Positions 34,946-61,645 of a stretch of 64,000 bases of DNA are shown here, piece by piece; within the stretch, counting starts at the first letter, position 1; each line of letters starts with the position of its first letter. The stretch is from Glaciibacter superstes DSM 21135. GTDB lineage: Bacteria > Actinomycetota > Actinomycetes > Actinomycetales > Microbacteriaceae. A program made the position numbers and the translations under genes. The notes under the pieces were generated by a model, which did not search any database, was not told the DNA's origin, and saw only the letters and a list, made by a program, of their open reading frames with translations. Location of the stretch: positions 62,001 to 126,000 of the forward strand of contig NZ_ATWH01000015.1 in NCBI RefSeq assembly GCF_000421145.1, read 5' to 3'.

Positions 34946-35723
34946 CCTCGGATCGACCGGCCGGCCAGACGGGGCGTCAGACTCCGCCGGCCAGCCGTGG
35001 GCAGGCCGCGAGTTCGAGGCGAGCACGCACTCGGACGACGACGGTTCTGCCCCCGCCGCGCTGATGGAGGCACTTCGCCGGTACCGCTTGCGCGAGGTCG
35101 GCGAGGAGAGCGTCATCGACGCGCTCCGCGAGTCGCGCCTGCTGATTCCCCTGGTTGCGCGGCTCGGCGAGGCCGGTGAGAACGAGCAGGGGGTGACGAT
35201 CGACAAAAGCCAGGAGCTGTCGATCATCACTGTCGCAGGGCCAGACGGTCGAAATGTCATGCCGGTGTTCTCTTCGGCCGCCGCGATGTCGGCGTGGAAT
35301 GCCGACGCACGCCCAGTGCCGGCAGACGCGGTGCGGGTGGCGCTCGCCGCCGCGCAGGAGAACACCGACCTTGTGGTGCTCGACCCGACCGCGGAGACGG
35401 AGTACGTCATCCGTCGCCCTGCACTGTGGGCGATCGCGCAGTCCCAGCCCTGGACGCCGAGTTACGCGAGCCGGCAGGTGGCGGATGCGTTCGCGGAGTC
35501 GATCGCGACCGAACTTTCAGTTCTCTCGGTCGCCCTGGTAGCGGGGGACCCAGAAGGTCGCCTGGCCGGACCTGAACTGGTGGTGCGACTGGAGCTGGTC
35601 GACGGCCTCACCAAGACTGAACTCGACGCCACCCTCGCGCGCCTGGCGACCAGGTGGTCGACCAGCGACCCGATCGCGACAGGGGTCGACTCCCTGAAGG
35701 TGCAGCTCGTCGCCTCGGTGTAG
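34929..35723 (+). CDS. SseB-family protein
   Basis: The 264-aa soluble protein has the SseB N-terminal domain (about 40-170): [29 protein letters not shown], then [20 protein letters not shown] in the strand-turn region of the family. The C-terminal part (about 180-264) is a second alpha/beta segment. SseB proteins in actinobacteria sit after priA but have no settled function. The ATG at 34929 lies inside the end of priA, 17 bp before its stop, so expression is coupled to the his operon. Confidence 0.8.
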
Positions 35724-35786
35724 CGTACTGCCGGCTATCGAGACGGAAAACACACGGGTGCATTCGCTGTCGCGTGATTGCTCTTT

Positions 35787-36926
35787 CTATCGCAGCGGTC
35801 GGAGAAATTCCCTCAGGTCGATAGCGAGCAGGTCTGGCTCTTCGTGTGGTGCGAAGTGCCCGCCACGCGGCATCGTCGAATACCTCTCCACGTTGTATGT
35901 CCTCTCAGCCCAGCTGCGAGGCGGCTGCGTGAGATCGCGCGGGAACACCGCGACGGCAGTCGGCACGTCGACTCTCCGTACCCGCGTCGTCAGACCGGCC
36001 GCGAACTCCCAGTAGGGCCGGAACGACGTCGAAGTCGAGTTCGTGAACCAGTACAGAGACGCCTGAGCGAGCAGGAAGTCGTCGCTGAATCGCGCCGACA
36101 GGTCTCCGTCGGAGTCGCTCCACGCCCGGTACTTCTCGATGATCCACGCGAGGAGGCCAACCGGAGAGTCGGAAAGTGCCGGTGCGAGACTGAGTGGACG
36201 GGTCTGTTGCTCGTGCTGGTACCCACCCTCCGCGCTCACCCAGGACTGCACCTCATCCAGGTATGCCTGCTCTCCGCTCGTGAGCGACGCTGAATCGACG
36301 TCGGCTGGGGCGGCCACTGCGAGAAGGTGGATTCCGACCACCGACTCCGGGTGGGCCTCGGCAAGTCGCGACGTTATGCCGGCGCCCAGGTCGCCCCCGT
36401 GGGCGGCGTAGCGCTCGAAGCCGAGCTCGTCGAACATCAGCCGGTGCCAGATCTCGTGGGTCTGCTCGGCATGAGTCGGGCGCTGCGGGGAGAACGGGAA
36501 CCCGGGCAGGGCCGGCACGATGACAGTGAATGAGTCTGCCGCGTCTTCGCCATACGCGGACGGGGTGGCAAGGCGCCTCGCGAGTTCGACGAGTTCGAGA
36601 ACTGTGCTCGGCCATCCGTTGGTCAGGACGATCGGAAGCGCCCCGGGGCTCTCAGCCTCGAATCTCAGATAACTCAAGGAAGTGCCAGAGATCGTGGCGC
36701 TCTGCCAGGGCAGCTCGTTGATCTGGTGCTGCTGAGCCTCCCAATCGAAACCGTCTTCCCAGTAGGAGACCAGGCGGCGCAGCTCGGACTGGTCGGTGCC
36801 CGCCGTCCAGCCAGTGACCGGCCACTCTGGCGCCCATCGAGTGTGCCGGAGCCGGTCGCGGAGCTCATCGACGTCTTTTCGAGGTATGTCGAGCAAGAAT
36901 CCAGAGTTCATTCTGTAATTCTCCAT
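35787..36926 (-). CDS. Epoxide hydrolase family alpha/beta-hydrolase
   Basis: The 379-aa protein has an N-terminal EHN lid (about 1-105; FLLDIPRKDVDELRDRLRHT, RWAPEW) followed by an alpha/beta-hydrolase domain. VLTNGWPSTVLEL is the oxyanion region, HGGDLGAG carries the nucleophilic aspartate, and the base histidine is in GGHFAPHEEP near the C-terminus. Relatives hydrolyse epoxides to diols. Two ATGs, at 36926 and 36911, are possible; the first has no better ribosome site. The gene opposes its neighbours and belongs to an accessory block. Confidence 0.87.
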   Translation of the reverse strand: MENYRMNSGFLLDIPRKDVDELRDRLRHTRWAPEWPVTGWTAGTDQSELRRLVSYWEDGFDWEAQQHQINELPWQSATISGTSLSYLRFEAESPGALPIVLTNGWPSTVLELVELARRLATPSAYGEDAADSFTVIVPALPGFPFSPQRPTHAEQTHEIWHRLMFDELGFERYAAHGGDLGAGITSRLAEAHPESVVGIHLLAVAAPADVDSASLTSGEQAYLDEVQSWVSAEGGYQHEQQTRPLSLAPALSDSPVGLLAWIIEKYRAWSDSDGDLSARFSDDFLLAQASLYWFTNSTSTSFRPYWEFAAGLTTRVRRVDVPTAVAVFPRDLTQPPRSWAERTYNVERYSTMPRGGHFAPHEEPDLLAIDLREFLRPLR

Positions 36927-36997
36927 GGTTCTTAATCGTGCCGAGCAGCCCCAAATCAGCAATTCGCAATATGATCCCTGCATACGAAGGAGTTGCG

Positions 36998-37396
36998 ATG
37001 GCAATCACCGAAGTAATCCCTTACCTGTATTACGCGGATGCCGACGCCGCACTTGACTGGCTTGAACGCGTGCTGGGATTCGGCCCCTCCACTCGATGGA
37101 AAATGGGTGGTCAGACCACGAAGGAAGCCGATATCGTCGCCGGCGACTGCCGGATCTCTATTTCGGGCCGCGCGCCCGGAGCCAACGAGGGTGGCGGCGC
37201 GCTTCTGGTGGTGCACGTCGACAACATTGACGCTCAGTTCTCCAGAGTCGCCCTGGCGGCCCCTGGACTCAACCTGGCTCCGCCCGAGAAGCAACCATAT
37301 GGGCCGTGGACCTTTACGGTCGCGGATCCGTGGGGCTACAAATGGAACTTCTGGCAGGGAGAGGCAGACCCGCCCGTCGACTCGCTTCCCGAATAG
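36998..37396 (+). CDS. VOC (glyoxalase/bleomycin-resistance/dioxygenase) family protein
   Basis: The 132-aa protein has the paired beta-alpha-beta-beta-beta modules of the VOC fold: VIPYLYYADADAALDWLERV, LGFGP, then ALLVVHVDNIDAQFS and DPWGYKWNFWQ, which carries the last-strand motif of glyoxalase-like proteins. The metal ligands are not all obvious and the substrate is unknown. The ATG at 36998 has AAGGAG (36985-36990). It is divergent from the epoxide hydrolase, with 71 bp between starts. Confidence 0.85.
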   Translation: MAITEVIPYLYYADADAALDWLERVLGFGPSTRWKMGGQTTKEADIVAGDCRISISGRAPGANEGGGALLVVHVDNIDAQFSRVALAAPGLNLAPPEKQPYGPWTFTVADPWGYKWNFWQGEADPPVDSLPE

Positions 37397-37556
37397 ACAA
37401 CGCCGGGCGGAAGGTCCGAGCTACGACCTCACATCCTCCTCCGCGCCGACTCCTCCAACGTCAGCACCTTCTGGTGAAGGAGGATTCCGCATAGAACACA
37501 AGTAGTCGCCCTGCTGCACGGTTGGGAGTGTCAGTGGAGTGGGCGAAGATGGGGAG

Positions 37557-40500
37557 ATGGCTGAGGTACTGGGGCGCTTCTCGCCGGCCACTCGCGCGTG
37601 GTTCGGCGAGGCGTTCGCCGCGCCAACGGCCGTGCAGCTCGGAGCCTGGGATGCGATCTCTCGCGGCTCACACGCACTGGTGGTCGCCCCGACCGGCTCC
37701 GGCAAGACCCTCGCGGCATTCCTGTGGGCGATCGACCGTCTCGCCGCGAGTCATGTGACGGATGCCGCGGCGACGGCGACGGCGACGCCGATCACCAAGG
37801 TGCTGTACATCTCCCCGCTGAAAGCCCTCGGTGTCGACGTCGAACGTAACCTGCAGGCTCCACTGGTGGGAATCACCCAGGCCGCTCACCGGCTGGGCTC
37901 CGAGCCGCCACACGTCAGCGTCGGCGTGCGCTCCGGTGACACCCCCTCCGCTGACCGGCGCTCGCTCGTGAAGACTCCTCCCGACATCCTGATCACCACG
38001 CCGGAATCGTTGTTCCTGATGCTCACCTCGGCCGCGCGCGAGTCGTTGCGAGGTGTCGAGACGGTCATCATCGACGAGATCCACGCGGTCGCCGCCACCA
38101 AACGCGGCGCGCACTTGGCTGTCTCCCTGGAGCGACTGGACGCACTGCTGGCCACGCCCGCTCAGCGAATCGGTCTCTCGGCGACCGTGCGGCCGCATTC
38201 GGAAGTCGCGCGATTCCTCGGCGGGTCGGCTCCGGTCGAGATCGTCGCGCCAGATGCCCAGAAGCGGTTCGACCTGCGCGTGGTCGTGCCGGTCGAAGAC
38301 ATGAGCCAGCTCGGTGCCGCGCCGCCCCAAGAGGGTTCGGCGGCGGCAAGCACGCCGCGCACCGGCTCGATCTGGCCGCACGTGGAGGAGGCGATCGTCG
38401 ACCAGGTGCTCGCGCACTCGTCGTCGATCGTGTTCGCGAATTCGAGGCGGCTGGCCGAACGGCTCACAGCCCGGTTCAACGAGATCTATGCCGAGCGGAT
38501 GGAGGCGGAAGCGGAGGGTGAGCCGGTTGCATCCGTCGCTGTGTCAAGCGACGTCTCAGCCGGCGCCGTTCTCGAGGCCGGAGGCAGTTCGCCTCGCCGC
38601 TCGCCCGCGGAGATAATGGGAGGCAGCGGCCAGAGCGAGGGCGCTCCGCCGCTGCTGGCCCGTGCGCACCACGGTTCGGTGAGCAAGGAACAGCGGGCGA
38701 TGATCGAAGACGACCTGAAGTCGGGCTGGCTCCGTTGTGTCGTGGCGACGTCGAGCCTCGAACTCGGCATCGATATGGGGGCCGTCGACCTTGTCGTGCA
38801 GGTGGAGTCGCCGCCGTCCGTCGCCAGCGGTCTCCAGCGCGTCGGCAGGGCAGGGCATCAGGTGGGTGAAGTGTCACGCGGTGTGATCTTTCCCAAGCAC
38901 CGGGCCGATCTGATCCACTCAGCTGTCGCGGCCGAGCGGATGAAGGCCGGTCTGATCGAGTCGCTGGCCGTACCGACGAACCCCCTCGACATCCTCGCGC
39001 AGCAGACCATTGCCACCGTCGCCTTGGAGCCGATCGACGCAGACGAGTGGTTTGAGAGCGTGCGCCGGAGCGCCCCTTTCGCCACCCTGCCGCGATCCGC
39101 GTATGAGGCCACACTCGATCTGCTCGCCGGGCGATACCCCTCCGACCAGTTCGCCGAGTTGCGCCCGCGCATCCTTTGGGACCGGGAGAACGGCACACTG
39201 ACCGGCCGACCGGGAGCACAGCGTCTCGCCGTCACCAGCGGCGGCACCATCCCCGATCGCGGCCTGTTCGGTGTCTTCATGGTCGGCGGGGATACCGCAA
39301 CCGGCAAGCGGGTCGGCGAGCTCGACGAAGAGATGGTCTACGAATCCCGGGTCGGCGACGTCTTCGCCCTGGGAGCGACGAGTTGGCGCATCCAGGAGAT
39401 CACTCACGACCGCGTTCTGGTGGTGCCGGCATTCGGGCAACCGGGTCGGCTTCCGTTCTGGAAGGGCGACGGGCTTGGCCGGCCGGCCGAACTGGGCCGC
39501 GCCGTCGGCGCATTCCTCAGGGAAATCGGGACGGCAAAACCGACCGAAGCTCGCGCCCGGTGTGCAGCAGGCGGCCTCGACGAACGGGCGACGAACAACC
39601 TGCTCGCCTTCCTCGACGAGCAACGGGCAGCGACAAGGCACCTTCCCACCGACAGCACGCTGGTCGTCGAACGGTTCCGTGATGAACTCGGCGACTGGCG
39701 GGTGGTGCTGCATTCACCGTTCGGCATGCAGGTCCACGCGCCCTGGGCGCTCGCCGTCGGTGCCAGGGTGCGGGAGCGGTTCGGCATCGACGGTGCCTGC
39801 GTGGCCAGCGACGACGGCATCGTCGTGCGCATTCCAGACACAGAGTCCGAACCGCCGGGCGGAGAGCTCTTCGTGTTCGACCCAGACGAGCTCGAGCAGC
39901 TGGTGACGGAGGAGGTCGGCGGCTCCGCCCTCTTTGCGTCCCGTTTCCGTGAGTGCGCCGCTCGTGCACTGCTTCTGCCGCGGTACAACCCCGGCAAGCG
40001 CTCGCCGCTCTGGCAGCAGCGGCAGAAGGCGTCCCAGCTGCTCGAGGTTGCGCGCGTCTACCCGACGTTCCCGATCATCCTGGAGACCGTTCGCGAGTGC
40101 CTGCAAGACGTCTACGACCTGCCGGCGTTGACCGACCTCGCCCGACAGATCGCCAGCCGCACCGTGCGCCTCGTTGATGTGACGACGGATGCCGCCAGCC
40201 CGTTCGCGTCGACGCTCCTGTTCGGTTACGTGGCCGCCTTCATGTACGAGGGCGACTCCCCGCTCGCAGAACGCCGCGCCACCGCGCTCTCGCTCGATGC
40301 CGGCCTGCTGGCCGACCTGCTCGGTCGCGTTGAACTCCGTGAGCTGCTCGACCCGGGCGTGCTCGAGCTGACCGAGCGGGAGTTGCAGCGTCTGGCCGAC
40401 GACCGGAAGGCACGCGGGCTGGAGGGCGTCGCCGACCTGTTGCGCACACTCGGACCACAGACCGTCGCGGAGGTCAGCGAACGGCTGGCGCCCGTTGAGG

Positions 40501-42296
40501 GAGCCACCACCGACGCACAGGCGCCGGAACACCAGGCGCTGGAACACCAGGCGCTGGAACACCAGGCGCTGGAACACCAGGCGCTGGAACACCAGGCGCT
40601 GGAACACCTCACCGCCCTGGTAGCAGCGCGGAGAGCCATCAGGGTGAGCTTCGCCGGGCACGACTGGTGGGCGGCGATTGAAGACGCCAGCCGGCTGCGC
40701 GATGCCCTTGGCGTGCCGGTTCCGCTCGGTATTTCTTCGGTCTTCACCGAGTCGGTCGCCGAGCCTCTTGGCGACCTGGTGAGCCGCTACGCCCGCACTC
40801 ACGGCCCGTTCACCGCTACGGATGTCGCCGAACGCTTCGGCCTGGGCACATCCGTCGCCCTCGGCGCACTTCGTCGCCTCGCCGATTCCCGCCGCGTGAT
40901 CGAGGGGGAGTTCCGGCCGCACGGTGCTGGAGCAGAGTGGTGCGATGCTGAGGTACTGCGCCGGCTTCGCCAGCGTTCCCTTGCCGCGCTTCGGCACGAG
41001 GTGGAACCGGTCGACCACGCCACGCTCGGGCGCTTCCTGCCGGCCTGGCAGCATGTCGGCGGCCGGCTTCGAGGACTTGACGGCGTCGCATCCGTCATCG
41101 AACAGCTGGAGGGCGCTCGCGTTCCCGCGTCGGCCTGGGAGTCGCTGATTCTGCCCGCGCGGGTCTCCGATTACAGTTCGGCGATGCTCGACGAGCTGAC
41201 CGCGACGGGGGAGGTGCTCTGGGCGGGTTCCGGGTCGCTCTCCGGCTCCACCGGTTCGGCGGCCAGGGACGGCTGGATCAGCCTGCACCTGGCGGAGACG
41301 GCCCCTCTCACCCTGCCTGTCGCTCTCGGTTTCGACGCCACACTGATGCAGCAGGAGGTTCTCGCCACGCTGGGCGGCGGCGGGGGGTATTTCTTCCGGC
41401 AACTGGCGGATGCGGTCGGCAGCCAGGACGACGCCGACCTGGTGCTCGCGCTCTGGGAACTGGTGTGGGCCGGTCTCGTGAACAACGATACTTTCGCGCC
41501 GGTGCGTTCGCTGATCTCCGGCGGTCGCAGTGCGCACAAGCCCACGAGGTCGGCGCCGAGGGCGAGAATGGGCCGCGGACGCAGCCTGCCACGACCGAGC
41601 CTGCCGAGCAGGGGCGGGCCGCCAATCGTTGCAGGGCGCTGGTCGATCGTTCCACTCGCAGACGAGTCGAGCACCAGGCGCGCGCACGCCCTCGGTGAGA
41701 CCCTGCTGGAGCGCTACGGCGTGGTCACCAGAGGCGCCGTCACCAATGAGGGCGTCATTGGGGGGTTTGCGCTGGTTTACCGCACCCTGAGCGGCTTCGA
41801 GGAGACCGGCCGGGCCCGCCGTGGCTACTTCATCGAGGGCCTGGGCGCGGCGCAGTTCGCGACGGCGGGCACCATCGACAGACTGCGCAGCTACGTGTCA
41901 GACGGCTCGAATGAACGGGCCGGCGCGGCCTCGATCTTCACGTTGGCCGCGACCGATCCGGCGAACCCGTACGGCGCCGCCCTGCCGTGGCCGGCGCTGC
42001 CGGAGGGCACCACTCATCGCCCGGGGCGGAAAGCAGGGGCTCTCGTGGTGCTGGTCGACGGCGAGCTGGCGCTCTATATCGAACGCGGGGGCAAGTCGAT
42101 GCTGGCCTTCACCGACGCGGAAGACCGCCTGGTCGGTGCTGCGCGATCGCTCGCCGACATCGTCACCGGGGGAGGGGTGGACCGAATCCGAGTCGAAACC
42201 GCCAATGGGCAGTTTGTGATCGGAACACCGCTCGGAAAGGCACTCCAAGACGCCGGCTTCTCGGTCACGCCACAGGGCCTACGGTTCTCGAATTGA
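37557..42296 (+). CDS. lhr: Lhr-type ATP-dependent helicase
   Basis: The 1579-aa superfamily 2 enzyme matches the large actinobacterial Lhr: Q-motif region FAAPTAVQLGAWD, Walker A APTGSGKT (44-51), DEIH near 172-175, SATVRP as motif III, and HHGSVSKEQR and QRVGRAGHQ as motifs IV-VI. An Lhr winged helix and long C-terminal region follow. Mycobacterial Lhr is a 3'-5' helicase of similar length used in interstrand crosslink and mutagenic-damage repair, and the Nei-type gene downstream fits a repair role. Residues 988-1017 are a QALEH tandem repeat. The start is uncertain: an in-frame GTG lies at 37539, but ATG 37557 gives the usual N-terminus (LGRFSPATRAWF). Confidence 0.93.
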   Translation: MAEVLGRFSPATRAWFGEAFAAPTAVQLGAWDAISRGSHALVVAPTGSGKTLAAFLWAIDRLAASHVTDAAATATATPITKVLYISPLKALGVDVERNLQAPLVGITQAAHRLGSEPPHVSVGVRSGDTPSADRRSLVKTPPDILITTPESLFLMLTSAARESLRGVETVIIDEIHAVAATKRGAHLAVSLERLDALLATPAQRIGLSATVRPHSEVARFLGGSAPVEIVAPDAQKRFDLRVVVPVEDMSQLGAAPPQEGSAAASTPRTGSIWPHVEEAIVDQVLAHSSSIVFANSRRLAERLTARFNEIYAERMEAEAEGEPVASVAVSSDVSAGAVLEAGGSSPRRSPAEIMGGSGQSEGAPPLLARAHHGSVSKEQRAMIEDDLKSGWLRCVVATSSLELGIDMGAVDLVVQVESPPSVASGLQRVGRAGHQVGEVSRGVIFPKHRADLIHSAVAAERMKAGLIESLAVPTNPLDILAQQTIATVALEPIDADEWFESVRRSAPFATLPRSAYEATLDLLAGRYPSDQFAELRPRILWDRENGTLTGRPGAQRLAVTSGGTIPDRGLFGVFMVGGDTATGKRVGELDEEMVYESRVGDVFALGATSWRIQEITHDRVLVVPAFGQPGRLPFWKGDGLGRPAELGRAVGAFLREIGTAKPTEARARCAAGGLDERATNNLLAFLDEQRAATRHLPTDSTLVVERFRDELGDWRVVLHSPFGMQVHAPWALAVGARVRERFGIDGACVASDDGIVVRIPDTESEPPGGELFVFDPDELEQLVTEEVGGSALFASRFRECAARALLLPRYNPGKRSPLWQQRQKASQLLEVARVYPTFPIILETVRECLQDVYDLPALTDLARQIASRTVRLVDVTTDAASPFASTLLFGYVAAFMYEGDSPLAERRATALSLDAGLLADLLGRVELRELLDPGVLELTERELQRLADDRKARGLEGVADLLRTLGPQTVAEVSERLAPVEGATTDAQAPEHQALEHQALEHQALEHQALEHQALEHLTALVAARRAIRVSFAGHDWWAAIEDASRLRDALGVPVPLGISSVFTESVAEPLGDLVSRYARTHGPFTATDVAERFGLGTSVALGALRRLADSRRVIEGEFRPHGAGAEWCDAEVLRRLRQRSLAALRHEVEPVDHATLGRFLPAWQHVGGRLRGLDGVASVIEQLEGARVPASAWESLILPARVSDYSSAMLDELTATGEVLWAGSGSLSGSTGSAARDGWISLHLAETAPLTLPVALGFDATLMQQEVLATLGGGGGYFFRQLADAVGSQDDADLVLALWELVWAGLVNNDTFAPVRSLISGGRSAHKPTRSAPRARMGRGRSLPRPSLPSRGGPPIVAGRWSIVPLADESSTRRAHALGETLLERYGVVTRGAVTNEGVIGGFALVYRTLSGFEETGRARRGYFIEGLGAAQFATAGTIDRLRSYVSDGSNERAGAASIFTLAATDPANPYGAALPWPALPEGTTHRPGRKAGALVVLVDGELALYIERGGKSMLAFTDAEDRLVGAARSLADIVTGGGVDRIRVETANGQFVIGTPLGKALQDAGFSVTPQGLRFSN
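40518..40607 (+). repeat. 15-bp in-frame tandem repeat in lhr encoding QALEH
   Basis: Six units of CAGGCGCTGGAACAC run without a gap; the first differs by one base (CCG for CTG, giving QAPEH). The unit length is a multiple of three, so copy-number changes would keep the frame. The stretch lies in the linker between the helicase core and C-terminal domains. Confidence 0.97.
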
Positions 42297-42326
42297 ACGT
42301 GCGACCGCTGCTGTCCAGGGGAACGG

Positions 42327-43103
42327 ATGCCTGAGGGCGACACCGTCTACCAGACGGCACGAACGCTGGATGCAGCGTTGCACGGCGCAGTCCTGACGCG
42401 GTGCGACATCAGGGTGCCGGAGTTCGCCACCGTCGACCTCACCGGCCAGACCGTGCACGAGGTGGCCAGCAGGGGTAAGCACCTGCTGATGCGGATCGGC
42501 GAGGTGAGTATCCACTCGCATTTGAAGATGGAGGGTTCCTGGCACCTCTACCGCCATGGCACCTCCTGGAAGCGGCCGGCTTTCCAGGCGAGGGCCGTGC
42601 TGGAGACGGCGGAATGGGTCACCGTGGGTTTCGAACTCGGGGTGCTCGAGATCGTGCCGATCGAGCGTGAGGCGGAGCTGCTCGCGTACCTCGGGCCAGA
42701 CCTGCTCGGCGCAGGCTGGGATGCGGAAGAAGCGGTTCGCCGGCTTGAGGAGCATGGCGACGTGCCGGTTGCGGTGGCGCTCGCCGACCAGCGCAATATC
42801 GCGGGGCTCGGCAATGTCTACGTCAACGAGTTGTGCTTCCTGAGGGGAGTGCTACCGACCCAGCCGGAATCGCGGGTGTCAGACGTGCCAGGGATGATCG
42901 CGCTGGCGCACCGCCTGATCACGGCGAACCGGGAACGGGTGCGCACGACGACGGGCGACACCAGGCGGGGGAGGCAGCTATGGGTCTACGGGCGGGATGG
43001 CGAACCGTGCAGGCGCTGTGGCACGCGCATCGAGCGAGGCCGGCTCGGTCGCACAGAACTGGAGCTGCGAGACACCTTCTGGTGCCCCCGTTGCCAGGTC
43101 TGA
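42327..43103 (+). CDS. nei2: Fpg/Nei-family DNA glycosylase (Nei2-like)
   Basis: The 258-aa protein starts MPEGDTVYQTA, so the catalytic N-terminal proline and Glu of endonuclease VIII are present. SRGKHLLMRI is a DNA-backbone contact region, the helix-two-turn-helix segment has DQRNIAGLGNVYVNELCFL, and a zinc finger ends the chain (CRRCGTRIE then FWCPRCQ, four cysteines). It should excise oxidised pyrimidines and nick the abasic site. The ATG at 42327 is 31 nt after lhr, and lhr-nei2 pairing is known in mycobacteria, so the two probably act together. Confidence 0.92.
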   Translation: MPEGDTVYQTARTLDAALHGAVLTRCDIRVPEFATVDLTGQTVHEVASRGKHLLMRIGEVSIHSHLKMEGSWHLYRHGTSWKRPAFQARAVLETAEWVTVGFELGVLEIVPIEREAELLAYLGPDLLGAGWDAEEAVRRLEEHGDVPVAVALADQRNIAGLGNVYVNELCFLRGVLPTQPESRVSDVPGMIALAHRLITANRERVRTTTGDTRRGRQLWVYGRDGEPCRRCGTRIERGRLGRTELELRDTFWCPRCQV

Positions 43104-43109
43104 TTGTGC

Positions 43110-43379
43110 TCAGTGCATGGGTGTTGGCGGAATCGGCCCGGTGACGTTGCCGCCCTCGTCGCTTTCGTCGCCTGGCCGGCTGGCATCGACGTCGGATTTT
43201 GTCGAGTCAGACGTATTTTCCTCCGCCTGACCGTCGCTGTTGCCTTCCAATCCGTCGACGATGCCATTCGTCTGGTCGAATGGGTGACTCACATCGCCCA
43301 GGTCGCCGAGGTTCGCTTTGTCATCCGGTGTCGTGTCGCCGGCCGCGTCTGCTTCTTCGTTGGAGGATTCGTTCGTCAT
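43110..43379 (-). CDS. Small, very acidic hypothetical protein
   Basis: I do not recognise this 89-aa product (MTNESSNEEADAAGDTTPDD at the start). It is rich in Asp, Glu, Asn, Ser and Gly, has no hydrophobic segment or cysteine, and should be disordered. It is listed as a gene because on the minus strand a TAGGCT hexamer (43387-43392) ends 7 nt before the ATG at 43379, the leaderless pattern. Its stop is 6 bp from the convergent nei2 stop. An in-frame extension upstream would run through the 60-bp palindrome and is rejected. Confidence 0.55.
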   Translation of the reverse strand: MTNESSNEEADAAGDTTPDDKANLGDLGDVSHPFDQTNGIVDGLEGNSDGQAEENTSDSTKSDVDASRPGDESDEGGNVTGPIPPTPMH

Positions 43380-43443
43380 ATTTCGGAGCCTACGCCGCCG
43401 TTTCCCAGCGTCAACCCCGTCCGCCCCAGGTCGTCCATCACGA

Positions 43444-43503
43444 CGCGCCAATTGCGCGCGCATGCGCCATGCGCGCATGGCGCATGCGCGCGCAAATGGC
43501 GCG
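43444..43503. repeat. 60-bp near-perfect palindrome, dispersed repeat copy 1
   Basis: Two 30-bp arms (43444-43473 and 43474-43503) pair at 29 of 30 positions with no loop. The core is GCCATGCG/CGCATGGC. It lies between the divergent starts of the acidic protein and the GNAT gene. Copies 2 and 3 are at 43905-43964 and 59381-59440. Confidence 0.95.
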
Positions 43504-43534
43504 CGGCGGTGAGACGAGGATTAGAGTTCCGAAT

Positions 43535-43891
43535 GTGAACGCGATCGTTCCCAGGCGCGAGCAGCACGGTGTCGCTTGGTACGCAGTTCGACGCAGCGAT
43601 GGGGCCTTGGTTGGGAGTGCCGGGTTGTTCATGGGCCGGACCGGGCCGCATCCCGAGATCGGTTTCGAGGTCCGCCACGCAGATCAAGGCCAGGGTTACG
43701 GCAGCATTGCAGCGGCAGCCGTGGTCGCTGAAGCCCATCGGGCAGGCTTCCCCGAGGTCTGGGCGACCGTCCGTGGATGGAACGTTGCCTCGTTGCACGC
43801 GCTGGCTCGAGTGGGGTTCGTTCAGGACCGGATAGAGAATGACGATCGCGGTGACCTCGTCTTCTTGCTGCACAGGAGCGCTTGCGACTGA
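43535..43891 (+). CDS. Short GNAT-type acetyltransferase
   Basis: The 118-aa product covers most of a GNAT fold: VRRSDGALVGSAGLFM (beta2-beta3), EIGFEVRHADQGQGYGSIAA with the acetyl-CoA loop QGQGYG, and RGWNVASLHALARVGFVQD near the C-terminus, typical of the RimJ/RimL-like branch. It is about 30-50 residues shorter than usual at the N-terminus. TAGAGT (43522-43527) ends 7 nt before the GTG at 43535, which supports this start. Either the enzyme is a true short form or the promoter and start arose after a deletion. Palindromic repeats lie on both sides. Confidence 0.7.
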   Translation: MNAIVPRREQHGVAWYAVRRSDGALVGSAGLFMGRTGPHPEIGFEVRHADQGQGYGSIAAAAVVAEAHRAGFPEVWATVRGWNVASLHALARVGFVQDRIENDDRGDLVFLLHRSACD

Positions 43892-43904
43892 CGGTTTATC
43901 ACGA

Positions 43905-43964
43905 CGCGCCAACTACGCGCTCATGCGCCATGCGTGCGTGGAGCATGAGCGCGCAGATGGCGCG
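43905..43964. repeat. 60-bp imperfect palindrome, dispersed repeat copy 2
   Basis: Two 30-bp arms pair at 27 of 30 positions when two G-T pairs are allowed. The left flank shares ATCACGACGCGCCAA with copy 1. It sits between the GNAT stop (43891) and the convergent DUF1844 stop (43973), where it could also act as a two-way hairpin terminator without T-run. Confidence 0.92.
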
Positions 43965-43972
43965 CAATGCGC

Positions 43973-44359
43973 CTAGTTGACCGGGCCGGTGTACTTCTCG
44001 CCAGGGCCCTGGCCGATCGGGTCTGGAATGGCAGATGCCTCGCGGAACGCGAGTTGCAGGGAACGCAACCCGTCGCGCAGGCTCCTGGCGTGCATGTCGG
44101 AGATGTCGGGGGCGGATGCCGTCACCAGGCCGGCGAGGGCGGTGATCAGTTTTCTGGCCTCGTCGAGGTCTGTCTGTGACTCCGGGTCGTCAGCCAGGCC
44201 GCACTTGACGGCTGCCGCGCTCATCAGGTGTACGGCCGTGGTGGTGATGACCTCCACGGCGGCGACATCGGCGATGTCCCTGGTCGCCTGGGCGGCGTCA
44301 TCCTCATCCGGAAACCGGAGATCGGGGGTATTCGGTGCCGTAGTGTCGCTCACTGCCAT
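43973..44359 (-). CDS. DUF1844 domain-containing protein
   Basis: The 128-aa protein has AAVEVITTTAVHLMSAAAVKCG followed by DLDEARKLITALAGLVTAS, the conserved core of DUF1844, a small family found next to infC in actinobacteria; quoted motifs are partial. It has no catalytic motif and its function is unknown. It is divergent from infC, and the two share the 272-bp upstream region. Start ATG at 44359 with an AGAGG just before it. Confidence 0.85.
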   Translation of the reverse strand: MAVSDTTAPNTPDLRFPDEDDAAQATRDIADVAAVEVITTTAVHLMSAAAVKCGLADDPESQTDLDEARKLITALAGLVTASAPDISDMHARSLRDGLRSLQLAFREASAIPDPIGQGPGEKYTGPVN

Positions 44360-44366
44360 CCTCTGC

Positions 44367-44631
44367 TAGACTCATCCGGGCTCCGAGATGTAAATCTCGG
44401 TACGAAAGTGGAGAATCTCCCACCCGCGCATACCGCTTCATCAAGGTTACCGGGTCGATTACACTCCGCCGTCGCGGCGCTGGTCTCCAGCATTGCGAAG
44501 GTAGACAGGGTGTCGTGTTTAGGTTGCGAGAACAATTCGCGAGTGCCTGCGCACGTGATTCTCCTCGCTTCGTCGCCAGCGGCATCCGTCGTCTGGTTGT
44601 AGTCACGAAGTATTGAGTAGAGGAGTGACGC
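44367..44631 (+). promoter_or_regulatory. Structured 5' leader of the infC-rpmI-rplT operon
   Basis: A TAGACT hexamer (44367-44372) can act as -10, giving a leader of about 250 nt. It begins with a perfect 7-bp hairpin CCGAGAT-GTAA-ATCTCGG (44383-44400) followed by a second stem in GTGGAGAATCTCCCAC (44407-44422). infC operons in other bacteria have long leaders that bind L20 for feedback; this one may do the same, but I could not fold it fully. The leader ends with the ribosome site AGGAG at 44621-44625. Confidence 0.55.
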
Positions 44632-45208
<577 letters not shown>

Positions 45209-45216
<8 letters not shown>

Positions 45217-45403
45217 GCAGAAGACCCACTCCGGGTCCAAGAAGCGTTTCAAGGTCACCGGTACCGGCAAGATCATGAAGCAGCAGGCCGGCATGCGTCA
45301 CAACCTGGAGGTCAAGGCCTCCAAGCGCAAGGCACGCCTGAACCAGGACCAGGTGCTGGCCAAGGCCGACAGCAAAGTCATCAAGAAGCTTCTCGGTCGC
45401 TAG
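45209..45403 (+). CDS. rpmI: 50S ribosomal protein L35
   Basis: This 64-aa basic protein has the L35 signature: [20 protein letters not shown] and [17 protein letters not shown]. The ATG at 45209 overlaps the last codons of infC by 8 bp and has AGGAGG at 45198-45203, so the two are coupled. It is the second gene of infC-rpmI-rplT. Confidence 0.97.
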
Positions 45404-45431
45404 ACCTTCGTAACGTAAGGAATTCAGGAAA

Positions 45432-45821
45432 ATGGCAAGAGTAAAGAGGGCAGTCAACGCCCACAAGAAGCGTCGCGTCATCCTCGAGCGCGCCGAGGGC
45501 TACCGCGGACAGCGTTCGCGTCTGTACCGCAAGGCCAAGGAGCAGGTCACCCACTCCTTCGTCTACAGCTACCGCGACCGTCGTGCCCGCAAGGGTGACT
45601 TCCGTCGCCTGTGGATTCAGCGCATCAACGCCGCGTCGCGCGCGAACGGCCTCACCTACAACCGCCTGATCCAGGGCCTCGGCCTGGCCGGCGTTGAGGT
45701 AGACCGCCGTATCCTCGCCGAACTGGCCGTCAATGAGCCCGCCACGTTCGCGGGGCTCGTGGAGACCGCCAAGGCTGCTCTTCCCGCCGACACGTCGGCT
45801 CCGAAGGCTGACGCCGCGTAG
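45432..45821 (+). CDS. rplT: 50S ribosomal protein L20
   Basis: The 129-aa basic protein binds 23S rRNA early in assembly. [40 protein letters not shown] and [20 protein letters not shown] are its conserved parts. Start ATG at 45432, with AAGGAATTCAGGA upstream. In several phyla L20 represses this operon by binding its leader. A hairpin terminator follows at 45839-45874. Confidence 0.97.
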
Positions 45822-45838
45822 CAATACCTGCAGTTTTC

Positions 45839-45874
45839 ACGGGAGCCGCTGGCCATCTGGTCGGCGGCTCCCGT
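45839..45874 (+). terminator. Hairpin terminator after rplT
   Basis: ACGGGAGCCGC (45839-45849) pairs perfectly with GCGGCTCCCGT (45864-45874), an 11-bp stem with a 14-nt loop. A short T-rich stretch (TCTGTGTCT) follows. It ends the infC operon before the methyltransferase gene. Confidence 0.8.
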
Positions 45875-45937
45875 TCTGTGTCTGGGCCCCTCGGCGGGTT
45901 GCCCCTTGAACGAGTGAGCGCCAAGTAGGCTTAGAAC

Positions 45938-46738
45938 ATGCTTGATAATCCCCGTTCGCCGCGTGTGCGCGCCGTGGCCAAACTGGCCAAGCGCAGCGCC
46001 AGAGCCGAGACCGGGCTGTTCCTCCTCGAGGGGCCGCAGTCCGTCGCAGAGGCGCTGACCTTCCGCCCGGAGCTGGTGGTCGACCTTTTCGCGACTCCGA
46101 CAGCACTCGAGCGTTATCCCGACATCGCAGAAGCGGCAACCCAAGCCGGCATCGAGGTGGAGTTTGTCACCGAGCAGGTACTCGAGGCGATGGCCGATAC
46201 GGTGACTCCGCAAGGCTTCGTTGCCGTCTGTCGTCAGTTCCCGACCTCGGTAAAAGACATCTTCGCCGGGGAGCCACAGCTCATCGCCATCCTCGAAGAG
46301 GTGCGCGACCCCGGCAACGCCGGCACCATCATCAGGGCGGCAGATTCCTCCGGTGCCGATGCTGTGATCCTCACCGGTCGCAGTGTCGACCTGTACAACC
46401 CCAAGGTCGTCCGTTCCTCAACCGGTTCGATCTTCCATGTTCCCGTTGCCGTCGGCGCCACCCTCGACGATGTGGCGGGCCGGGCACGGGCCGCTGGGCT
46501 CCAGGTGCTCGCCGCCGACGTCAAGGGCGATGACCTGCTCACCGCCCGCTCGGCCGGTGTGCTCGCTGCTCCGACCGCGTGGCTGTTCGGAAACGAAGCC
46601 CGCGGCCTGACGGACGAGAGCATCGAACTAGCGGATCGTGCCATCACCGTGCCGATCTACGGCAACGCAGAATCGATGAATCTCGCGACCGCGGCCTCCG
46701 TCTGCCTGTATGAGAGCGCGTTCGCCCACCGCTCTTAG
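45938..46738 (+). CDS. TrmH/SpoU-family RNA 2'-O-methyltransferase
   Basis: The 266-aa protein has an N-terminal substrate-binding domain (LFLLEGPQSVAEAL) and the SPOUT knot motifs: motif 1 EEVRDPGNAGTIIRAAD, motif 2 WLFGNEARGL and motif 3 IPIYGNAESMNLATAASV (VPIYGN in the sequence). It should methylate a ribose 2'-OH in rRNA or tRNA. Position after rplT is conserved in actinobacteria, and an rRNA target is likely; RlmB-like and TsnR-like members cannot be told apart by eye. TAGGCT (45926-45931) ends 6 nt before the ATG at 45938. Confidence 0.92.
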   Translation: MLDNPRSPRVRAVAKLAKRSARAETGLFLLEGPQSVAEALTFRPELVVDLFATPTALERYPDIAEAATQAGIEVEFVTEQVLEAMADTVTPQGFVAVCRQFPTSVKDIFAGEPQLIAILEEVRDPGNAGTIIRAADSSGADAVILTGRSVDLYNPKVVRSSTGSIFHVPVAVGATLDDVAGRARAAGLQVLAADVKGDDLLTARSAGVLAAPTAWLFGNEARGLTDESIELADRAITVPIYGNAESMNLATAASVCLYESAFAHRS

Positions 46739-46754
46739 ATACAACCGCCTGACC

Positions 46755-46828
46755 ATTCGACGGAGATTTTCGTCGAATAGCGTGAATCAGGGCGATTTGT
46801 GCTCTTCTAGAACAGAATCTCCGTCGAA
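46755..46828. repeat. Intergenic inverted repeats upstream of gluA
   Basis: TTCGACGGAGATT (46756-46768) and AATCTCCGTCGAA (46816-46828) are perfect 13-bp arms 47 nt apart. The left arm can also pair locally: ATTCGACG (46755-46762) with CGTCGAAT (46771-46778). So two mutually exclusive hairpins are possible. It may terminate transcription from the methyltransferase gene or regulate the glutamate transporter. Confidence 0.75.
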
Positions 46829-46915
46829 CGGCTGCGGGCGAAGCTCGATTACAAATAAGTAACCGTCCGGAGAATGTGGGGGCATCCGGTTCGCTGGTCC
46901 CCTATGTTTGGGGAT

Positions 46916-47704
46916 ATGGAGCCTACAGCGCCGTCACCGGCTACCTCGAACATCAGTGTGCGTCGAGGCGAACCACTCGTTGTTGTCAAAGACGTCAACA
47001 AGCACTTCGGGGAACTGCACGTTCTGAAGAACATCAACTCGGTGGTGAACCGCGGCGAGGTCGTTGTGGTGATCGGTCCGAGTGGATCGGGCAAGTCGAC
47101 CCTGTGCCGGGCGATCAACCGCCTCGAAACCATCGACGACGGCATCATCACGATCGATGGCCATGAGTTGCCGAAGGAAGGCAAGGCGCTGGCGCACCTC
47201 AGGGCCGACGTCGGTATGGTCTTCCAATCGTTCAACCTCTTCGCACACAAGACCGTGCTTGAGAACGTCACCCTCGGGCCGATCAAGGTGCGTGGGATGT
47301 CGCGGAAAGATGCTGACAAGCGCGCGATGGAGCTGCTCGAGCGCGTTGGCGTGGCCAATCAGGCCAAGAAGATGCCCGCCCAGCTCTCTGGTGGCCAGCA
47401 GCAGCGCGTGGCCATCGCGCGTGCGCTGGCGATGGACCCGAAGGTCATCCTGCTCGACGAGCCGACCAGCGCGCTTGACCCCGAGATGATCAACGAGGTG
47501 CTCGAGGTCATGATCAGACTCGCCGAAGACGGCATGACCATGATCGTCGTGACGCACGAGATGGGCTTCGCTCGTAAGGCAGCGGATCGCGTCATCTTCA
47601 TGGCGGAGGGCGAGATCGTTGAGGAAGCCACCCCTGAGCAGTTCTTCACCAACCCCCAGAGCGCGAGAGCGAAGGACTTCCTCTCGAAGATACTTGCCCA
47701 CTAA
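46916..47704 (+). CDS. gluA: Glutamate ABC transporter ATP-binding protein
   Basis: The 262-aa ATPase powers the polar amino-acid importer encoded by the next three genes. Walker A is GPSGSGKST (about 54-62), the Q-loop is in [17 protein letters not shown], the signature is LSGGQQQR and Walker B is [14 protein letters not shown], with VTHEMGFAR as H-loop; these are GluA/GlnQ-class features. TATGTT (46903-46908) ends 7 nt before the ATG at 46916, so the operon mRNA is probably leaderless. Confidence 0.95.
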
Positions 47705-58404: not shown

Positions 58405-59334
58405 GTGACCCGCCATTTCCTGCGCGACGACGACCTCACACCGGCCGAACAGGCCGAGATCCTCGACCTTGCACTGGAACTGAAGCGAGACCGATTCCAG
58501 ACGCAGCCCCTGGCCGGGCCGCAGACGGTCGCCGTGATCTTCGACAAGTCGTCGACCCGCACTCGGCTCTCCTTCGCGGTCGGCATCGCAGACCTCGGCG
58601 GCAGCCCGCTGATCATCACGACAGCGAACAGTCAGCTCGGCGGCAAGGAAACCGCGTCTGACACCGCTCGTGTCATGGAACGCCAGGTCGCCGCGATCGT
58701 CTGGCGCACCTACGCGCAGTCCGGCCTCGAAGAGATGGCGAACGGCACAACTGTCCCCGTGATCAACGCACTCTCCGATGACTTCCACCCCTGCCAGCTG
58801 CTCGCCGACCTGCTCACCATTCGCGAGCACCGCGGCGAACTCGCCGGGCTGACCCTCACCTTCCTCGGAGACGGTGCGTGCAACATGGCGCAGTCTTACT
58901 TGCTCGCGGGGGCGACGGCCGGCATGCACGTGCGTATCGCCTCGCCCGCCGAGTACTCGCCGAATGGCCAGGTTGTGGCGGATGCCGACGCGATCGCCAC
59001 GAAGACCGGTGGCTCTGTGACGCTCTACACCGATCCGCTCGAAGCAGTCGCCGGTGCGGATGTCGTGGTCACCGACACCTGGGTCTCCATGGGCAAAGAA
59101 GAGGAGAAGGCCGCGCGCCTGAGCGAGCTCGGCCAGTACCGGGTGGACGAAGACCTGATGGCGCTGGCCAAGCCAGACGCGCACTTCCTGCACTGCCTCC
59201 CGGCCGACCGCGGCTTCGAGGTCGCGGCAGAGGTCATCGACGGACCGCAGAGCATCATCTGGGACGAAGCGGAGAACCGCCTTCACGCGCAGAAGGCCCT
59301 CTTGGTCTGGCTGCTGCAGAAGAACGCCGCGTAG
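58405..59334 (+). CDS. argF: Ornithine carbamoyltransferase
   Basis: The 309-aa enzyme makes citrulline from ornithine and carbamoyl phosphate. The phosphate loop is FDKSSTRTRLSF, followed by NALSDDFHPCQLLADLLT and the ornithine-binding HCLPADRGFEV near the C-terminus. The GTG at 58405 has a weak purine stretch upstream. Unlike the usual actinobacterial order, no argR follows; the next 281 bp hold a 60-bp palindrome and then argH. Confidence 0.96.
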   Translation: MTRHFLRDDDLTPAEQAEILDLALELKRDRFQTQPLAGPQTVAVIFDKSSTRTRLSFAVGIADLGGSPLIITTANSQLGGKETASDTARVMERQVAAIVWRTYAQSGLEEMANGTTVPVINALSDDFHPCQLLADLLTIREHRGELAGLTLTFLGDGACNMAQSYLLAGATAGMHVRIASPAEYSPNGQVVADADAIATKTGGSVTLYTDPLEAVAGADVVVTDTWVSMGKEEEKAARLSELGQYRVDEDLMALAKPDAHFLHCLPADRGFEVAAEVIDGPQSIIWDEAENRLHAQKALLVWLLQKNAA

Positions 59335-59380
59335 CTCGCGCAGGCGCCAAGCGCCGTTCGACTGTCACACGCGCACGGCA

Positions 59381-59440
59381 CGCTCCATTTGCGCGCCCAT
59401 GCGCCATGCGCGCGTGGTGCATGGGCGCGTAACTGGAGCG
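59381..59440. repeat. 60-bp imperfect palindrome, dispersed repeat copy 3
   Basis: Two 30-bp arms (59381-59410 and 59411-59440) pair at 29 of 30 positions with G-T pairs allowed. It shares the GCCATGCG core with copies 1 and 2 but differs by paired changes. It is located 46 bp after argF, upstream of the argH promoter hexamer TAAACT (59507-59512). Confidence 0.92.
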
Positions 59441-59510
59441 CGGCGGGTACACCCCGAAGGCCGGGTCGTCGGCAACAGTCGCGGGGACTCCGCCGCCGTC
59501 AAGCCGGTAA

Positions 59511-61645
<2,135 letters not shown>

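Follow-up and report, generated by a model that had tools for sequence, protein, structure and literature searches.

A 5'-truncated GNAT acetyltransferase gene between two copies of a REP-like palindromic repeat in Glaciibacter superstes

Introduction

Integron gene cassettes carry one small gene, often encoding an acetyltransferase, between imperfect palindromes (attC) in direct repeat, and the core sites of attC read RYYYAAC and GTTRRRY. Dispersed palindromes of another type are the REPs of the GTAG and CGTC superfamilies; a paper on these repeats (PMC3733652) gives them a length of 20-40 bp, a stem of 5-13 bp and a GTAG or CGTC tag that stays unpaired. According to the same text, REPs are intergenic, some families are species-specific, and most copies lie downstream of coding regions or between convergent or unidirectional genes (PMC3733652). 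The term "Actinobacteria" has no occurrence in the main text of that paper (PMC3733652).

We analyzed a 64-kb stretch of DNA of Glaciibacter superstes DSM 21135 (64,000 nucleotides; hereafter, the window), in which a small GNAT gene lies between two copies, P1 and P2, of a 60-bp palindrome. The locus resembles an integron cassette in having a small acetyltransferase gene between direct-repeat palindromes, but differs from attC-bounded cassettes in the near-perfect symmetry of the palindromes and in the distribution of the copies, which are scattered over the genome and are mostly single. Inspection by eye of the ends of P1 and P2 revealed neither RYYYAAC nor GTTRRRY. Like the REPs as characterized in the main text of PMC3733652, the repeat is extragenic, occurs in multiple copies (29 places) and is mainly found at gene 3' ends or between convergent genes. 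Unlike those REPs, it is 60 bp long with arms of about 30 bp; none of 56 flanks contained GTAG, and 12 of 56 edges had CGTC. The GTAG type of REP is accompanied in the genome by a RAYT (Y1_Tnp) transposase, whereas PF01797 had no match in the host genome. A further likeness is to the mycobacterial "I-shaped" intrinsic terminators, as far as they are presented in PMC12288462, in which a GC-rich hairpin lies close behind the stop codon and a U-tract is absent; the hairpins found here differ from them in forming a dispersed family of similar copies.

Results

The features of the locus are listed in Table 1. The Nei gene adjoins the DUF1844 gene in 51 of 55 relatives' stretches, and DUF1844 is present in 56 of the 57 genomes of the genus, the host genome (G000) counted. 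The small acidic ORF has a match in a single relative, G001, whose homologue (54% over 54 aa) occupies the corresponding position. The arms of P1 are complementary at 29 of 30 positions (97%), which makes it the most perfect of the 29 family copies, and those of P2 are 86% complementary. The spacing given in the preliminary description was confirmed, as P1 lies 31 bp before the GTG codon at 43535 and P2 follows the TGA, which ends at 43891, at a distance of 13 bp. The left flank that it reported as common to both palindromes is also real, positions 43437-43451 and 43898-43912 both being ATCACGACGCGCCAA (15 nt). P1 and P2 have the same orientation and are 88% identical over 68 bp. The common flank is, however, weaker evidence than it looks, because the outward flanks have a loose consensus, YGGCG, and three other flank pairs match equally well, with 7 or 8 bases, when the flanks of the 29 copies are compared with one another (1624 comparisons). 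Furthermore, P1 and P2 rank 101 of 406 copy pairs in identity; they are not the closest copies, and a recent duplication between them is therefore unlikely. The idea that they represent a fresh duplicate was dropped on this ground. A search of the whole 64-kb window against Rfam gave nothing at gathering scores, and the palindrome-GNAT segment found no match in plasmid and phage records.

Table 1. Positions in the window of the features at and near the GNAT locus
Feature	Position	Strand	Remarks
Nei/Fpg-type DNA glycosylase, left flanking gene	42327..43103	+	Pfam Fapy_DNA_glyco, H2TH, zf-FPG
Small acidic ORF, 89 aa	43110..43379	-	no Pfam match
Palindrome P1	43444..43503	strandless	C15, centre 105474; 60 bp
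P1-to-GNAT-homology stretch	43504..43552	+	overlaps first 6 codons of GNAT ORF
RimL-type GNAT ORF, 118 aa, GTG start, 5'-truncated	43535..43891	+	Pfam PF13302, tblastn
Palindrome P2	43905..43964	strandless	C15, centre 105935; 60 bp; convergent GNAT/DUF1844 gap
DUF1844 protein, right flanking gene	43973..44359	-	Pfam PF08899
Third family copy in window	59381..59440	strandless	between argF and argH, 46 bp after argF (arg genes named by eye)

The GNAT protein had been described as short for its family, and we found that it is short because the gene is truncated at its 5' end. The ORF scored above the PF13302 cut-off (49.7 vs 25.4 bits) and contains an incomplete GNAT domain, matching PF00583 at 32-116 of 116 and PF13302 at 49-138 of 138, so that, as compared with RimJ/RimL-type GNAT acetyltransferases, the first third of the domain is missing. 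A full-length homologue (L243) matched PF13302 at 2-138 and PF00583 at 21-116. In tblastn alignments, homology begins at codon 7 (position 43553), corresponding to residue 56 or 60 of the homologues; the window gene thus lacks the first 55-59 residues, and the end of P1 (43503) is 49 bp from the break. At 43510-43518, nearer to P1, the frame reads ETR, which is similar to the homologues and hints at a longer homology, but it was left uncounted because the aligner gave no anchor for it. The missing N-terminus was searched for in positions 40000-47000 with no match below E 0.2, and the host genome held no near full-length GNAT copy elsewhere, the best other match being 39%.

When 396 genomes of the order were searched, with at most 11 candidates scored per genome, so that weaker matches may have been missed, the nearest homologues were found in G217 (69%), G175 (66%) and G087 (60%), all three from families of the order other than that of the host and all encoding full-length proteins; the homologues measure 167-178 aa, with start codons chosen by us. 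The best match among 36 other genomes of the genus was 42%. This distribution suggests that the GNAT gene was acquired from another actinobacterial family. The residual ORF of 118 aa probably encodes a non-functional or altered acetyltransferase.

A 24-base core pattern located the palindrome family at 29 places in the 4.8-Mb host genome, and the reversed control pattern had 0 matches there. Elsewhere in the genus, two of 56 genomes matched, each at a single place and with 3 mismatches, the limit allowed, and the rest gave none; at 2 mismatches, none was found in 397 other genomes of the family (9 of the same genus). The repeat family thus appears so far confined to this one genome, with no convincing member in the relatives searched. 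An alignment of 28 of the 29 copies, with the half copy at C8:85555 left out, was used for the analyses of pairing described below. As written from the copies, the family consensus is roughly CGCGCCANTTRCGCGCNNATGCGCCATGCG followed by its near reverse complement, and the 60-bp unit extends to about 70 bp when the loose flank consensus is included. The copies cluster, since five pairs of neighbours are no more than 3 kb apart and only 0.5 such pairs are expected (P 0.00025; the 3-kb limit was set after seeing the data), and in a simulation with 29 random places the probability of any pair within 500 bp was 0.08. No Y1_Tnp (PF01797) was found in the host genome (a 98.9% complete draft), whereas the same search was positive in 5 of 14 control genomes. 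Titles and abstract openings retrieved in a literature search held no description of the 60-bp repeat.

Of the 26 extracted copies, 24 were classified by genomic context, that is, all except P1 and P2; three copies added later (C11:89974, C16:359 and C7:88153) are not counted. Twelve of these copies lie between convergent genes, 10 between tandem genes and 2 between divergent genes, and a gene 3' end is no more than about 140 bp away in 22 of the 24. The convergent share (12/24) was significantly higher than that of the background gaps of at least 60 bp in the fetched host stretches (9/66; 35 tandem, 22 divergent; Fisher P 0.0012); these context classes rest on a simple home-made gene caller, which missed the GNAT ORF. 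In the window alone, the background gaps comprised 4 convergent, 21 tandem and 4 divergent ones (convergent 4/29). P1 is an exception to the 3'-end rule, as it sits between two divergent 5' ends on the present map. Since the repeat mostly marks gene ends, the bracketing of the GNAT gene is more likely to be a side effect of the placement of the repeats than the structure of a mobile cassette. The above-chance clustering is left unexplained by the simple 3'-end model.

At the third copy in the window, argG is absent between argF and argH (59332-59615), and a pre-argG-like sequence seems to be left; the relatives have argG, the genes being named by eye. The idea that this copy marks a deletion breakpoint of argG loss was discarded; the copy lies 46 bp after argF, and two relatives (G072 and G020) carry another palindrome in that gap. 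Both genes were found in 16 relatives, and the other 14 have no palindrome in the argF gap.

The RNA of P1 or P2 is predicted to fold into a single long hairpin on either strand, with energies on the + strand of -57.5 kcal/mol for P1 and -45.3 kcal/mol for P2. The z scores over both strands were -6.2 to -7.7 (P2, z -6.7), and 0 of 200 shuffles were as good. These values, and the lack of matches to the reversed control pattern, show that the palindromes did not arise by chance. Stem pairing across the 28 copies amounted to 88.9%. Covariation among these copies was not above shuffles (score, 129/500; both-side pair changes, 259/500), so that selection on RNA structure is unsupported, and covariation was dropped as a proof of RNA structure. 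At 9 tandem sites, the transcribed strand had slightly more G-U wobble pairs (19 vs 11), a weak bias with transcription. No U-tract follows the hairpins, with at most 3 T among the first 8 outward bases in 56 flanks, and a terminator scan flagged neither P1 nor P2. One trait of intrinsic terminators is present at P2, namely a GC-rich, stable predicted hairpin close behind the stop codon.

The corresponding locus was compared in the 56 other genomes of the genus, none of which is of the same species. The DUF1844 locus was obtained from 55 of them and Nei also from 51, there being no Nei in the stretches L142 (G021), L143, L147 and L174. No GNAT gene was seen in the stretches around DUF1844 (0/55; the whole Nei-DUF1844 interval is readable in 51). 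The gap between Nei and DUF1844 is at most 200 bp in 40 of the 51 readable relatives. G001 (L172) keeps the left small acidic ORF, and only about 52 bp separate the ORF start from the DUF1844 stop. In G006, the slot contains a single NUDIX gene and then a different palindrome. Palindromes scoring at least 10 were found in the slot of 27 of 51 relatives (shuffled mean 0.2, maximum 2), the remaining 24 being below the threshold. These palindromes are of unrelated kinds that differ by clade. One of them, a single-copy terminator-like hairpin, is present at the Nei-DUF1844 slot in 7 genomes. Another belongs to a second, multi-copy palindrome family found in 8 of 57 genomes; this family has 46, 20 and 16 forward matches in the genomes G065, G061 and G033, respectively, which are the three that have it in the slot. 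The extra genes and differing palindromes across relatives suggest a slot that accepts genes as well as 3'-end hairpins and whose content turns over between species.

The second palindrome family also occurs at the end of the PHP gene in G061, G033 and G005 (L327, L329 and L331), where the host has a copy of its own family. For the PHP and deoA slots, the loci of 29 of the 56 relatives were fetched and read; a palindrome follows PHP in 12 of these 29, and none does in 17. Sharing of slots between kinds of palindrome is thus common, but not general. As a separate observation, the second family forms a cluster at L304 (G065 C1:2895800-2901500), where its copies lie around single genes, of which one was recognized by eye as AbiEi/DUF559-like.

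The closest counterpart of the GNAT locus in the host genome is an AbiEi-like gene of 325 aa, which two repeat copies flank in the PHP-DEAD slot, the gap that separates a PHP-domain gene from one for a DEAD-box-like helicase (L200:2045-3248; C11:89944-91147); the Pfam match of the AbiEi-like gene is below the family cut-off (E 0.00019; 21.9 bits vs 25). In the 29 relatives read, the genes flanking this slot are at most 400 bp apart in 23, and the AbiEi-like gene is present in 0. Two copies also bracket an AdoHcyase-IclR gene pair between deoA and add (L204:2094-4304; C5:234593-236803), and their left flanks match at 10 of 12 bases. In G021, which lacks the repeat family, AdoHcyase and IclR are likewise found between deoA and add, together with two more genes, and other palindromes lie after deoA and after the last added gene. 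The view that every close copy pair is a repeat-linked cassette accordingly failed at deoA-add. This slot is variable, and AbiEi-like genes (28-30% identity) occupy it in 4 of the 29 relatives read. In G175, an unrelated palindrome flanks the GNAT homologue itself on both sides, its downstream copy being less perfect and recognized by eye. In G087, a 3' palindrome overlaps the stop codon of the GNAT homologue, and the next one is met about 1 kb upstream. The deoA-add, G175 and G087 cases suggest that bracketing can arise from 3'-end hairpins without moving cassettes.

Discussion

The preliminary description had regarded the bracketed gene as a cassette that could have moved or been duplicated. 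Part of this stands, since the GNAT segment, absent from this place in 51 of 51 readable relatives, looks like a lineage-specific insertion; a recent duplication is made unlikely by the low identity rank of P1 and P2, and an intact unit is contradicted by the 5' truncation near P1. The same description had named two arrangements to look for in relatives. The GNAT gene being at this place in all of them, which would speak against mobility, was not found, the gene being there in none; an empty site with one palindrome left, which would support it, was seen at none of the 51 loci either, because the repeat family is absent from the relatives searched. A moving cassette at the GNAT locus is thus not demonstrated, and it is kept possible by the second bracketed single gene and the significant clustering of the copies. 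Such a cassette might arise if a circle of one gene and one palindrome were inserted into a palindrome already present in the genome through recombination, either homologous or site-specific; the product would be a palindrome-gene-palindrome direct repeat, and the GNAT unit would be one such cassette. The equal orientation of P1 and P2 and their common 15-nt left edge are consistent with this process, as are the lack of GNAT in the slot of every readable relative, the clustering, and the AbiEi-like gene with its absence from the 29 relatives read. We nevertheless consider it quite unlikely, as the one-palindrome site was never met in relatives, P1 and P2 are not the closest copies, the AdoHcyase-IclR pair sits at its place in G021 without the repeat, the GNAT gene is truncated, the Y1 transposase was not found in the host genome, and the segment is unmatched in plasmid and phage records. 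A bolder version, which we hold to be similarly doubtful, is that the palindromes are gene-capture sites, at which single foreign genes (GNAT and, in C11, the AbiEi-like gene) would be taken up by a palindrome already in place, a second copy remaining behind, in the manner of integrons without a recognized integrase. Other species of the genus would use unrelated palindrome families, sited at the same gene ends, in this role.

If the two palindromes served instead as the ends of a composite REP- or MITE-like element and carried the intervening DNA as one unit, two copies in the same orientation around a passenger gene would be expected, as is the case here. This appears very improbable, because no target-site duplication was seen by eye around the whole unit, most copies of the family are single, and Y1_Tnp, detected in 5 of 14 controls, is lacking from the host genome. 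At the other extreme, P1 and P2 could be two independent intergenic repeats that came to lie near each other by coincidence, the 7 bases that they have in common beyond the palindrome arising from the loose flank consensus and chance. The three other 7- or 8-base matches among the flanks, the YGGCG consensus and the probability of 0.08 for any pair within 500 bp make such a coincidence conceivable, but the clustering at 3 kb exceeds chance and the closeness of P1 to the break in GNAT would demand another coincidence, so that we judge it unlikely.

The explanation that we favor, and think probable, is that an acquired, truncated GNAT gene lies between REP-like 60-bp hairpin repeats of gene 3' ends, the bracketing reflecting two palindromes that settled at one variable slot and not the anatomy of a self-moving cassette. 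In this scheme, the GNAT gene would have entered the variable Nei-DUF1844 gap from another actinobacterial family, and the palindrome family, as its distribution shows, has spread within this lineage. P2 takes the usual place of the repeat, just past a stop codon and between the converging GNAT and DUF1844 genes. Its hairpin, predicted to be very stable from either strand, may terminate transcription in both directions without the help of a U-tract, or may serve as a stop at mRNA 3' ends, a role suggested by its position, by the hairpin stability and by analogy to mycobacterial terminators and REPs, as far as these are presented in PMC12288462 and PMC3733652, respectively. P1 lies at the damaged 5' end of GNAT, and its insertion, or recombination at P1, may have accompanied the loss of the N-terminus.

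An attractive cassette reading is thereby replaced by a testable one based on 3'-end hairpins. The species of the genus carry differing palindrome families that can fill the same gene-end slots, and foreign genes seem to enter those slots too. If this turnover were general, it would provide a natural experiment on how bacteria can acquire new terminators, or repeats of the REP kind, when no RAYT transposase is at hand, and would also bear on why repeats and acquired genes sit together.

The DNA to the left of the locus has features of its own. Compared with L197 (G021), positions 35718-43973, about 8 kb including a large helicase-like gene and the Nei gene, are without a nucleotide match. Within a helicase-like ORF of 1585 aa, a 15-bp head-to-tail repeat, CAGGCGCTGGAACAC, extends over 40503-40622 and is translated into EHQAL repeats.
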